Origin: Reinekea thalattae
GTDB taxonomy: Bacteria > Pseudomonadota > Gammaproteobacteria > Pseudomonadales > Natronospirillaceae
Length of the DNA stretch: 64,000 nt
Assembly: GCF_008041945.1 (NCBI RefSeq)
Contig: NZ_VKAD01000003.1
Coordinates: forward strand, 124,001 to 188,000
Direction of reading: 5' to 3'
A program made the translations under genes and the position numbers. The number at the start of each line of letters is the position of its first letter. Position 1 is the stretch's first letter. The notes under the pieces are model-generated. The model worked only from the letters and a program-made list of their open reading frames with translations, made no database searches and was not told where the DNA came from. Shown one piece after another: positions 33,984 through 38,201 of the stretch.

Positions 33984-35462
33984 TCAGTATTGCCAAAATT
34001 TGGGGATAAGCAGCACTAGGATGGTGAGGTATTCCAAACGGCCTAATAACATGGTGAAGGTCAGCAAGGCGGTACCGGCGTCGCTGACCGGAATAAAGTT
34101 ATTGCTCAGCTGGCCAAACGCTGGGCCAACAACATTTAGGCAGGATGCCACAGCGCTAACCGAAGACCACAGGTCTAAACCGGTCATCATTAATGCTATC
34201 GATAGCACAACATTGGAGACAATAACAAAGAGGATAAATGCCAGCGTATTGCGAATAACAGAATCTTCAATGGGGCGGCCTTGGTAGCGTATCGAAAAGA
34301 CGCCGCCAGGGTGAATGAGTCGGCGCACTTCGCGGCGGACTAATTTGAATAAAATAACAATGCGGATGATTTTACTGCCGCCAGCGGTAGAGCCTGCACA
34401 ACCGCCAAAAAAACCACTAACAAGCAACAAAAATAGCGCCGCCAATGGCCAGGCGGTAAAGTTTTCACCGCCAAAGCCGGTACTGGTCATAAACGAGATC
34501 AGGATAAAAAATGCATGATTCAGTGTTCGTAACATCGAAGGATCATGGCTGGCGGTTAAAATAACCGCAAAGATAGCCAAGCCAAGAAACAGCAGAATGC
34601 CAAAGAAAGCGCGCGTTTCTTCATTTTTTAAATAGGGCGAAACTCGTTTAACGCGAAAAAAGTGGTAATGCAGCGCAAAGTTAACTGCGCCGGCAATCAT
34701 AAAAAAATCGCTGATAAGATAGATTAATTCGCTTTCAAAATAGCCCAAGCTGGCATCGTGGGTGGAAAAGCCGCCGGTCGATACGGTCGAAAAGCTGTGG
34801 CTAATGGCATCGAAAAAGCTCATGCCTGCTAGGTAGTAAGCAATAGCACATAATATGGTAATGGCACTGTAGACAATCCATAAGTACTGCGCCGTGTGTA
34901 CGGTACGGGAAACTAATTTGTCGTCTTTCATCGGCCCTGGCACTTCAGCCTTTAATAGCTTCATGCCGCCGACGTTGAGTGTTGGCAAAACCGCGACGAC
35001 AAAAATGACGATACCTAAACCGCCGAGCCACTGCAGAAATTGTCGATACAACAAGAAGCTGTGCGGCATGCTGTCCAGCCCAGTTAACACTGTCGCGCCA
35101 GTGGTTGTTAATGCACTGAAGGACTCAAAAATAGCATCGACTGCCGATACGTGGGTGACTTCAGCAATAGGAATGGCAGCGCAAAAACCGATAATGAGCC
35201 AGGCTAACACGGCAAAAAATGGCGCCGTGCGGCCCTTAATAATGATCGGCTTTTTATGCGAGACGAGCCAAAGAGTAAAAGCCACCGCCAGTAATTGAAT
35301 ACCAGGAACAACAAAGGTGTTTTTTAGATGGTCGGCAAAAACAAACAGCGATAGATAACCAAATACGATAAACACCGTACCGATGATTGCCAGTGGTAAA
35401 ACCGACAATGACACGATGCTGAGCAAATTGAAGGGCGTACGATTCGTGCTAAAACCGACCAT
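33984..35462 (-). CDS. trkH: TrkH family potassium uptake protein
   Basis: This is the membrane subunit of a Trk-type K+ uptake system (492 residues), gated by the cytosolic NAD-binding partner TrkA, which is not in this window. Four pore-loop repeats are visible through their filter segments: SALTTTGATVLTG, HSFSTVSTGGFSTH, SFMTSTGFGGEN and CLNVVGPAFGQL. A GGCAGSTAGGSKIIR loop, conserved in TrkH, precedes a basic helix. The frame is open well upstream, but MVGFSTNRTPFNLLSIVS at 35462 begins the membrane domain and is the likely start. Together with betaine uptake it fits an organism that copes with salt stress. Confidence 0.92.
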   Translation of the reverse strand: MVGFSTNRTPFNLLSIVSLSVLPLAIIGTVFIVFGYLSLFVFADHLKNTFVVPGIQLLAVAFTLWLVSHKKPIIIKGRTAPFFAVLAWLIIGFCAAIPIAEVTHVSAVDAIFESFSALTTTGATVLTGLDSMPHSFLLYRQFLQWLGGLGIVIFVVAVLPTLNVGGMKLLKAEVPGPMKDDKLVSRTVHTAQYLWIVYSAITILCAIAYYLAGMSFFDAISHSFSTVSTGGFSTHDASLGYFESELIYLISDFFMIAGAVNFALHYHFFRVKRVSPYLKNEETRAFFGILLFLGLAIFAVILTASHDPSMLRTLNHAFFILISFMTSTGFGGENFTAWPLAALFLLLVSGFFGGCAGSTAGGSKIIRIVILFKLVRREVRRLIHPGGVFSIRYQGRPIEDSVIRNTLAFILFVIVSNVVLSIALMMTGLDLWSSVSAVASCLNVVGPAFGQLSNNFIPVSDAGTALLTFTMLLGRLEYLTILVLLIPKFWQY

Positions 35463-35539
35463 ATACTTACACCAATGATCTCTCGAACCTAGTTGGGATG
35501 GCGCGGCTCGTTGAGCGTTTTCGTGACTGGAATGAAGGG

Positions 35540-36418
35540 TCAAAAGTGTGCCATGCCTTCTTTGCCATGCCAATAGCCATTGCAATAGGGTGCTGAAGAG
35601 TTTGGTGTTTGCAGCCCAGTATTGCCAGCAATGGCTTGAGCGTAGGCTGTGACGATGCCTTCCATATCGATTTGGCTGGGCGATATGCGAATCGAATCAA
35701 CGCCCATTTCATCTAGGGTCGTAACCTGATCGAGCAAATCAAGGATTAAACCCGACTGAGTTTGAATGCCGTTTAGATTAAATAGGCGCTGTTGTTCACG
35801 GTTATCAACCGCAATGCCAGTAGGGTAGTCGATACAGATTTTTTTGCAGGCATCCTTTTCTCGCTCGTGTGCTCGTGCTGTAAAACAACGAGCAGACAAC
35901 GCCAACGGTAAATAGCCGTGCACCATCACTTCGGTGCGCAGCGGCAGTTGGTGTTGATTAATCTCAGTTAATAATCGTTGTAGCGGTTGCTGCCCCAGCT
36001 CGACCGGCAAAGTCCAATGGCTCATGCCATCGGCCTGTAATTGCTTGAGGCTTTCAATGTTATAGAGGTTTAAATAGGGCCCGCCAATAAAGGTTTTTTG
36101 TTGCTGAAAGCAATATTCTGCCGCCGCCAGATCGTTAGCTTCTATTAAATAGTCGCTGTCTTTGCACAGGCTTTTAATGGCTTTCAGTTCTGACTCTGCC
36201 TCTACCAATGCCAATGTGCTCATGACGACTTCCTTGCCTGCGTCGCTGAGCTGCTCAGCTAGGTTTAGCCAGTCTTCATTACGTAGTTCTCGGCGTTTAG
36301 AGCAGATGGTTTCGCCCAGACAAATTCGATCCACAGGCCATTCTGCTGCCTGCTTATAAAACTGGAAAACGGTTTCTTTCGGCCAGTAAAAAGGAATGGG
36401 TGCCAGAGTAATTTGCAT
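35540..36418 (-). CDS. ubiV: Ubiquinone biosynthesis protein UbiV (U32 peptidase family)
   Basis: This is a [4Fe-4S] protein (292 residues) of the peptidase U32 family. With UbiU it performs the O2-independent hydroxylations of the ubiquinone ring. Four cysteines match the E. coli cluster ligands: C39 (ETICSKRRELR), C178, C191 and C195 (ARCFTARAHEREKDACKKIC). The family block MVHGYLPLALSARC is intact. It lies 57 bp after ubiU on the same strand, so ubiU-ubiV is an operon. Its promoter region holds a perfect FNR box, implying anaerobic induction. No protease activity is expected. Confidence 0.93.
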   Translation of the reverse strand: MQITLAPIPFYWPKETVFQFYKQAAEWPVDRICLGETICSKRRELRNEDWLNLAEQLSDAGKEVVMSTLALVEAESELKAIKSLCKDSDYLIEANDLAAAEYCFQQQKTFIGGPYLNLYNIESLKQLQADGMSHWTLPVELGQQPLQRLLTEINQHQLPLRTEVMVHGYLPLALSARCFTARAHEREKDACKKICIDYPTGIAVDNREQQRLFNLNGIQTQSGLILDLLDQVTTLDEMGVDSIRISPSQIDMEGIVTAYAQAIAGNTGLQTPNSSAPYCNGYWHGKEGMAHF

Positions 36419-36475: not shown

Positions 36476-37471
36476 TTATTGCCAGTTTCGTTCATAAGCG
36501 CCAAGGGTGATTTGCGAGCCTTCGGAGACGGCCAATAATTGTTGCTGCCATTGGCTGTCGACCTTAAAGCTTTCTTGGTGGCTGAGGTAATGGTCAATCG
36601 CCTGTCGCCAAACACGAACCACTTGCGCGACGTAAGCCGGACTGCGCTGACGGCCTTCAATTTTTAATGCCTTAATGCCAGAGGCATGTAGCCGAGGCAA
36701 AATATCCAAAGTATTAAGGCTGGTCGGTTCTTCTAGCACGTGGAATTGCTTGCCCAGTGCCTGAAATCGACCCTTGCAGAGTGTTGGGTAGCCTGCGGTT
36801 TCTGCTTCACTGTATTGGTCGATCAGTACATCGTTTAGCCGCGCTTTGAGCGTTGTGCCATCATTTTGCCAAGCAACGTATTTGGCTGGAGAGCAAGCGC
36901 CGACCGTATTCGGCGATTCGCCGGTCAGGTATGAACTTAAGTAGCAACGGCCTTCGGCCATCACGCAGAGGCTGCCAAAGGCAAACACTTCCAACTCAAC
37001 AGGGCTGCTTTTGGCTAACGCTTCCACTTGCGGTAATGAAAGTACGCGCGGCAACACAGCGCGTTGAATATTAAAATGTCGCTGATAAAACGCCAGTGCC
37101 GCAGCGTTGGTGGCAGAAGCTTGCACCGAAAGATGTAATGTTTGCTCTGGGTGTCGCGTGCTTAGATAACCAAGTACAGCAGGATCGGCTGCGATAATCG
37201 CGTCGGCGCCCAGCTCAACGGCAGAGTCTGCCGCCTGTTGCCATTTGCTCCAGTGTTCGTCGTTGGCGTAAGTGTTGATCGCGACAAAGAGTTTTACACC
37301 CTTGTCTCGCGCCAATTGAAGCGCCTTTTGCGCCGCCTTGTCGTTAAAGTTTAAGCCAGAAAAATGCCGAGCGTTGGTTTCATCTTTGAACCCTAAATAC
37401 ACCGCATCGGCACCGTTTTCTACCGCGGCTTTAAAGGCATTGAGACTACCGGCGGGACAGACAAGCTCCAT
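36476..37471 (-). CDS. ubiU: Ubiquinone biosynthesis protein UbiU (U32 peptidase family)
   Basis: This is the partner of UbiV in oxygen-independent ubiquinone ring hydroxylation. From ATG 37471 (MELVCPAGSLNAFKAAVENG) it is 331 residues, the same as I recall for E. coli UbiU. Cysteines C169, C176, C193 and C232 fall at the positions of the known [4Fe-4S] ligands (FGSLCVMAEGRCYLSSYL, GACSPAKY, YPTLCKGRF). The frame is open upstream to 37537, but the upstream residues do not belong to the family. A TACACT -10 element (37497-37502, read on the minus strand) places the FNR box near -41. Confidence 0.94.
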   Translation of the reverse strand: MELVCPAGSLNAFKAAVENGADAVYLGFKDETNARHFSGLNFNDKAAQKALQLARDKGVKLFVAINTYANDEHWSKWQQAADSAVELGADAIIAADPAVLGYLSTRHPEQTLHLSVQASATNAAALAFYQRHFNIQRAVLPRVLSLPQVEALAKSSPVELEVFAFGSLCVMAEGRCYLSSYLTGESPNTVGACSPAKYVAWQNDGTTLKARLNDVLIDQYSEAETAGYPTLCKGRFQALGKQFHVLEEPTSLNTLDILPRLHASGIKALKIEGRQRSPAYVAQVVRVWRQAIDHYLSHQESFKVDSQWQQQLLAVSEGSQITLGAYERNWQ

Positions 37472-37523
37472 ACTGTTGGCTCCAAAAAAACAGCAGAGTG
37501 TAGTCCGCTTGGTTGGCCGTGCA

Positions 37524-37537
37524 TTGATGAATATCAA
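37524..37537. promoter_or_regulatory. Perfect FNR/Anr binding site between ubiU and ubiT
   Basis: TTGATGAATATCAA matches the TTGAT-N4-ATCAA consensus exactly and is palindromic. It is centred at 37530.5 in the divergent ubiU-ubiT promoter region. Leftward, a TACACT -10 (37497-37502) puts it near -41 of ubiUV. Rightward, TATTAT (37580-37585) puts it near -61 of ubiT. These are the two classical FNR activation positions. Confidence 0.85.
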
Positions 37538-37622
37538 TGTCGCTCGGGGCCAGAGCCCGTAGTGTCGCGTTTTTATCGCTATTATTTATTGTAATTATTT
37601 ATTGAAATTAAGAGTCTACCGA

Positions 37623-38201
37623 ATGATCTTGAACCGAATACCTTCGCCGAAACAATGCTTAGACAACGCAAAAGATGCATTAGCACCCAGCGTGCATCGT
37701 CTAGCAATACAGACTAAACCACTCGAAAAAAGCCTACTCGCCAGCAGCTGGCTGTTTGCCAAATTACCGCAACCATTGCAGGCTAAGTTGTTGGCTCGGC
37801 TACTGAACCAAGCATTGGCGGAGCAAATCGATAACGGCGAACTCGACTTTTTAGCCCAGCGTTGTTGCGCCATTGAATTAAAAGACGAATCAAAAGACAA
37901 CCAACAGCGTTGGCACATTGGCTTTGCTGAACAGGCTTTAATTGTAGATGCCAGCTTGCAACCCGATGTCACCATCAGTGCAACAGCCGCCGCTTTTTTG
38001 AGTTTGGTCAGCCAAAGCGTTGACCCTGACACGCTGTTTTTTCAGCGCCAGCTAGCCATCGAAGGCGATGTTGAAATGGGTTTAACCATTAAGAATTTGC
38101 TCGATGCACTCGATGAAGATGAGTTGCCAAAAGCTTGGCAAGCGATGATCAAGCAGTTACGTCGGCTGGTGGCGTTTGAGTCCGCTGTGGGTATTGGTTA
38201 G
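37623..38201 (+). CDS. ubiT: Ubiquinone biosynthesis accessory protein UbiT (SCP2 domain)
   Basis: This is an SCP2 sterol-carrier-like lipid-binding protein (192 residues) that assists anaerobic ubiquinone synthesis with UbiU and UbiV. The C-terminal SCP2 fold is visible: RWHIGFAEQALIVDASLQPD, then TISATAAAFLSLVSQSVDPD and FFQRQLAIEGDVEMGLTIKN. The last block, with GDVEMGLTIKNLLD, is characteristic of YhbT/UbiT. ATG 37623 is favoured (AAGAG about 9 nt upstream) over TTG 37602. It is divergent from ubiUV, as in E. coli, across a gap with an FNR box. Its last 4 bp overlap the convergent ppiC stop. Confidence 0.9.
   Translation: MILNRIPSPKQCLDNAKDALAPSVHRLAIQTKPLEKSLLASSWLFAKLPQPLQAKLLARLLNQALAEQIDNGELDFLAQRCCAIELKDESKDNQQRWHIGFAEQALIVDASLQPDVTISATAAAFLSLVSQSVDPDTLFFQRQLAIEGDVEMGLTIKNLLDALDEDELPKAWQAMIKQLRRLVAFESAVGIG

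Follow-up and report, generated by a model that had tools for sequence, protein, structure and literature searches.

Among the closest known counterparts of the locus analysed here is the ubiUV/ubiT region of Escherichia coli, where two FNR sites, F1 and F2, have been proven, mutation of F1 sparing ubiT and mutation of F2 sparing ubiV (PMC10470549). FNR control of ubiUV in E. coli, on which the initial annotation of the present DNA drew, is correct as far as it goes, but that statement was incomplete, as ubiT is also FNR-activated, through the second, independent site (PMC10470549). Each of the two E. coli sites has a -10 element on a single side, TAAAAT at 22 bp for one (toward ubiU) and CAAAAT at 21 bp for the other (toward ubiT). 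Besides its FNR-dependent promoter, ubiT has a constitutive one that keeps some UbiT present in air (PMC10470549). Beyond E. coli, 96% of the divergent loci of Pseudomonadota have a predicted FNR site separating ubiU from ubiT, and it has already been proposed for this phylum that the three genes are induced jointly (PMC11707229). Additionally, most FNR boxes of the regulated genes in Sphingopyxis are centred at about -40.5/-41.5, that of ubiT at -40.5, and one Fnr site might serve the divergent genes ccoN and ompW (PMC7713065).

Activation of divergent promoters from one site is familiar from CRP: single-site control of this kind is known, with 11 E. coli cases that have a single CRP site listed in one study, which cites El-Robh and Busby (2002) (PMC3105977). 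When CRP is placed at -40.5 or -60.5 on a promoter with a shared -10 element, the polymerases are made to compete (PMC12825309).

The divergent locus, its FNR box and the predicted regulator

In the window, i.e., the whole 64-kb stretch of DNA that was analysed, UbiU, UbiV and UbiT were identified with NCBIfam models, all above the curated cut-offs: ubiU (36476..37471, minus strand; NF047963, 541 bits, cut-off 440), ubiV (35540..36418, minus strand; NF047965, 361 bits, cut-off 275) and ubiT (37623..38201, plus strand; NF047962, 126 bits, cut-off 46.9). The ATG of ubiU (37471, minus strand) and that of ubiT (37623, plus strand) delimit a gap of 151 bp, from which ubiUV is read leftward and ubiT rightward, and the box TTGATGAATATCAA (37524..37537, palindromic, assigned to neither strand) would be common to both. 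A probable ribosome-binding site of ubiU, GGAG, can be read from the sequence at 37480..37483 (minus strand), 8 bases from the ATG. At the other end of the leftward unit (33984-35540), trkH is the next gene after ubiV in the same orientation, about 80 bp away and with no terminator-like site detected in between, and may be carried on an FNR-driven ubiUV transcript. A search for known structured RNAs with Rfam at the gathering threshold gave no match in 37300-37800.

The box is a real and exact observation. As the initial annotation had it, the match to the FNR/Anr consensus is complete: TTGATNNNNATCAA is matched with 0 mismatches by a perfect consensus palindrome, and this is the only such site in the whole 64-kb window. 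When up to one mismatch is allowed, the window has 6 sites, whereas shuffled sequence yields 3.1 on average, so that weak boxes on their own mean little; the runner-up within the gap, TTTATTGAAATTAA, has two mismatches and scores 8.0 bits, against 18.0 for the box. Exact boxes number 11 in the whole genome (2.94 Mb), compared with 2 for a reversed control pattern, and by our own arithmetic the chance of an exact box within the 151-bp gap is about 0.0006.

The locus combines two marks of an FNR regulon, an exact TTGATNNNNATCAA match in the control region (37524-37537) and an FNR protein encoded in the same genome (NF008365, 316 bits, cut-off 228). The half-site of the box is TTGAT, which we take to be of the FNR type and not of the CRP type, TGTGA. 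It is highly improbable that another protein of the Crp family, DNR or CRP, uses the box instead of FNR: although DNR recognises the same consensus in pseudomonads (PMC1274295) and a CRP gene is present in the genome (363 bits, cut-off 266), FNR and CRP are the sole two Crp-family helix-turn-helix matches, with no DNR paralogue at the cut-off, and DNR and CRP were accordingly set aside as owners of the box.

Two other exact boxes of this genome accompany genes of their own. One coincides with the called start of fnr (L012:929-942; G000:C1:1235028-1235041), whose reading frame runs from L012:925; six relatives align to the protein only from residue 8-12, and the true start of fnr is probably downstream of the called one, in which case the box may serve autoregulation. 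Another lies upstream of a pflB-like gene (L009:1501-1514; TIGR01255, 661 bits over a partial sequence, which is below the whole-protein cut-off). Toward this gene, TAGTCT, a hexamer of the type proposed below as the ubiT -10, stands at class II spacing from the box. Exact boxes at fnr and at a pflB-like gene are as expected of an FNR regulon.

Putative promoter elements on either side of the box

Within the genus, ubiU lies beside a divergent ubiT in 4/7 genomes, that of the window included, and in the other three the proteins are 79-82% (UbiU) and 47-51% (UbiT) identical to those of the window. FNR is encoded in 7/7 genomes, including the three that have neither ubiU nor ubiT (G003, G004 and G006), in which protein searches found neither an orthologue of UbiU nor a match to UbiT and fnr is kept; G003 and G004 show weak SCP2 matches below the cut-off. 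The anaerobic ubiquinone pathway seems to have been lost in these three. In all four genomes that carry the gene pair the box is present, in three of them exactly and in one with one mismatch.

On the ubiUV side, the putative -10 element is TACACT (37497..37502, minus strand, i.e., 37502-37497), 21 bp from the box and present in 4/4 of these genus members with a spacing of 21 or 22 bp to the edge of the box. With a start predicted from this hexamer near 37490, the box centre (37530.5) falls at about -40.5, which is class II spacing, and the placement at about -41 originally proposed for ubiUV holds. A terminator-like stem over this -10 (37492-37509, minus strand; 6 pairs, 3 of them G-C) was set aside since it lies within the promoter itself.

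The ubiT side offers two candidates. The initial annotation had chosen TATTAT (37580..37585, plus strand), from which a start near 37592 and a box centre at about -61.5 follow; both of its -10 candidates, TACACT and TATTAT, are present, and its distances are arithmetically right. TAGTGT (37560..37565, plus strand), which it did not mention, lies 22 bp from the box and would give the ubiT promoter class II spacing too, with a predicted start near 37572 and the box centre at about -41.5. By score TATTAT is nearer to the consensus (6.7 bits against 2.1 bits for TAGTGT, a weak hexamer), and it is the top-scoring hexamer on the right side, 42 bp from the box, the proper distance for class I. A layout in which FNR acts as class II (about -41) on ubiUV and as class I (-61.5) on ubiT through TATTAT nevertheless appears quite unlikely. 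In the alignment of the four ubiU/ubiT-bearing genus members TATTAT occurs in the window only and is absent from the other three, whereas the columns of TAG..T are invariant: the rightward element reads TAGTGT, TAGGGT, TAGGGT and TAGGAT in the four genomes, its distance to the box being 21 or 22 bp in every case. Thus, of the conservation in relatives that the initial annotation had proposed to check, the part concerning the box and TACACT stood and the part concerning TATTAT did not. Furthermore, the likely ubiT ATG is only 52-56 bp from the box in the three relatives (likely, as these starts were assigned by N-terminal length), so that a -10 at 42 bp would place transcription initiation at about the start codon. 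At a class I promoter, moreover, sigma has to bind the -35 region unaided by FNR, which counts against this layout, as a scan of the gap detected no -35/-10 pair at its threshold. The placement of the box at -61 for ubiT is therefore probably wrong, and the class I layout was rejected for the main ubiT promoter.

TATTAT may at most be an extra promoter of the window species. In such an arrangement TAGTGT would be the FNR class II promoter and TATTAT an additional one, perhaps FNR-independent, in the manner of ubiTp1 of E. coli, where a constitutive promoter of ubiT accompanies the FNR-dependent one (PMC10470549). In favour of it, the distance from the box to the likely ATG is longer in the window than in the relatives by about 30 bp (85 bp versus 52-56), but TATTAT lacks a -35 partner at the threshold of the scan as well as counterparts in the relatives, and we regard this second ubiT promoter as unlikely.

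The reading that we prefer, with a probability of roughly 0.7, is that one FNR dimer at 37524-37537 would activate two back-to-back class II promoters, a -10 element lying at activating distance on each side of the single site (21 and 22 bp). What can be read directly is the box, the spacing on both sides, their conservation and the FNR gene, and from these we predict binding, starts and activation. The shared-site layout is supported as more symmetrical than originally described, with the box at about -41 for both predicted promoters.

The layout across ubiU/ubiT loci

UbiT loci for a wider survey were drawn from relatives, from the order and from the class. A box of at least 10 bits was counted as good and a hexamer of at least 1.5 bits at 21/22 bp as -10-like; a -10 edge 21/22 bp from the 14-bp box puts the two centres 31-32 bp apart and the box at about -40.5/-41.5, i.e., in class II position. 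The first analysis comprised 26 compact divergent loci, 16 of them with a good box, and at these 16 the hexamer was found at 21/22 bp on the ubiU side in 14, on the ubiT side in 15 and on both in 13. Other offsets gave both sides in at most 2 loci (mean 0.62), and shuffled flanks gave a mean of 0.51, with at most 4 in 5000 rounds. With a cut of 3 bits the counts were 10 for the ubiU side, 10 for the ubiT side and 5/16 for both, against at most 1 at other offsets. The 21/22-bp rule arose from the first 15 loci; the compact good-box loci gathered after it pass on both sides in 6/6 cases (L037, L061, L100, L101, L123, L144). Among divergent loci with a larger gap, 9/11 passed in the first analysis, and in the window's own genome a single one of the 11 exact boxes, namely the ubiUV/ubiT box, has hexamers on both sides. 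At one surveyed locus a radical-SAM gene (TIGR01212, MnmL/YtqA, yhcC-like; L020:279-1271) lies between ubiU and ubiT, codirectional with ubiU, and the FNR box is located between this gene and ubiT; in E. coli, yhcC occupies a different part of the genome and is listed among the targets of FNR (PMC3688515).

With thresholds preset, the order of genome G517 gave a different picture for the two sides, the ubiU side passing at 12/12 loci and the ubiT side at 1/12, while another offset reached 6/12 for both sides; these 12 loci represent one family and two genera. The 11 failing loci carry CA[AC]TAT at 22 bp, in which the A and T of the hexamer are kept and the score is 0.8-1.3, so in this order the ubiT promoter would be weaker or located elsewhere. 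Seven non-divergent good-box loci from the same round had the left element in 0 and the right in 4 cases. The order of genome G501 contributed mostly non-divergent loci or weak boxes.

The final tally started from 203 loci, of which 6 were dropped (3 as duplicates, 2 because BLAST gave no UbiT hit and 1 for want of upstream DNA) and 197 kept; left out were 7 above-cut-off matches from the class, some of them low-scoring or short of upstream sequence, together with 1 borderline case from the order. It comprises 39 compact divergent loci, 11 divergent loci whose genes lie further apart and 147 others, among which good boxes number 28, 11 and 57, respectively, so that a good box is found at 39 of the 50 divergent loci and at none of the remaining 11, all compact. 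By the pattern NANNNT, a test picked after the result for the order of G517 was known, both sides are occupied at 21/22 bp in 33/39 loci, compared with at most 7 for non-overlapping offset pairs; by a score of at least 1.5, both sides pass in 23/39. In line with these counts and with the 21 and 22 bp at the window's locus, the earlier suggestion of a single box common to both divergent units gains support.

The controls separate the two sides. The left NANNNT is present in 37/39 divergent versus 17/57 non-divergent good-box loci (Fisher p 4e-11, with relatedness ignored, and with the non-divergent group including loci whose ubiU may lie past the sequenced stretch examined), and by score the left side passes in 35/39 versus 12/57. 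The right-side NANNNT, by comparison, is kept in 44/57 of the non-divergent controls, so a class II box would be common for ubiT in general and the left element would go with the divergent gene. The control counts were 12 (left), 36 (right) and 7 (both) of 57 in the final tally and 14, 34 and 7 of 51 in an earlier one, which differed in search range and rounding. The counts for offsets, shuffles and controls, in which loci were counted irrespective of relatedness, speak against chance as the origin of the symmetry.

The better-kept left side, most marked in the order of G517, could also mean that the box serves ubiUV alone, ubiT being transcribed without FNR and TAG..T being coincidental. We consider this very unlikely: TAG..T recurs in every genus member that has the locus, non-divergent ubiT genes in the survey mostly retain the box together with the right-hand A and T, and ubiT of E. 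coli is itself activated by FNR (PMC10470549).

A proposed shared activator site and the known systems

When oxygen falls, FNR carrying its iron-sulfur cluster dimerises and binds DNA. At low oxygen, the dimer would bind the palindrome and present equivalent surfaces to the left and to the right, each subunit thus being the polymerase-near subunit for one of the two promoters, and ubiT and ubiUV would rise together. Neither promoter has a recognisable -35 element, so both should depend on FNR. The predicted divergent starts are about 82 bp apart. The site upstream of FNR for the alpha arms of one polymerase would be where the other polymerase sits, and the two polymerases may sit together or alternate. 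More tentatively, and with somewhat less than even confidence, the perfect palindrome and the mirrored -10 elements may constitute a conserved two-way switch, which would tie both operons of the pathway to a single binding event and in which the polymerases share or contest the alpha-arm space, so that one promoter may limit the other. The two-site layout of E. coli would then be a design of its own, with ubiT uncoupled from ubiUV.

None of UbiT, UbiU and UbiV is dispensable for anaerobic ubiquinone synthesis. Were a single dimer to drive the two promoters, the ratio of UbiT to UbiUV would be fixed by the geometry of the DNA; E. coli, by contrast, tunes ubiT separately and makes UbiT in air too. 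The mirror layout, found across many divergent loci, would also offer a natural system in which to ask if two polymerases can be served simultaneously by one class II activator, a question on which the comparable work found concerns CRP and, in part, synthetic constructs. Control by FNR has already been published, as has the presence of an FNR site at divergent loci; the mirror class II geometry for ubiUV/ubiT was not found described in a search covering the article text of open-licence PMC papers. The accessible text of the Pseudomonadota survey differs from the present analysis in giving no -10 positions and in not describing a single site as class II for the two units (PMC11707229).

The single-site CRP systems resemble this locus in that one dimer of a protein of the same superfamily acts on both flanking promoters (PMC3105977); they differ in the activator, which is CRP and not FNR. 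Bidirectional promoters share with it a symmetry that yields divergent transcription, and activation in one direction can limit the other, but in them the -10 element is shared and the starts are typically 10-23 bp apart (PMC12825309), whereas in the window the activator site would be shared and the predicted starts are about 82 bp apart. The separate predicted -10 elements at 37497-37502 and 37560-37565 make the locus, by the definition given in that source, two divergent promoters and not one bidirectional promoter (PMC12825309).

With ubiUV/ubiT of E. coli K-12 the locus has in common the divergent arrangement, activation of both units by FNR, here predicted, and -10 elements likewise 21-22 bp from the sites (PMC10470549). 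The difference lies in the sites, which in E. coli K-12 are two, separate and imperfect, each serving one side (PMC10470549), whereas the window has one perfect box with candidate -10 elements on both sides. The gap contains one good box, and TTTATTGAAATTAA does not coincide with any -10 arrangement like that of E. coli. Thus, one box here appears to do what two sites do in E. coli.
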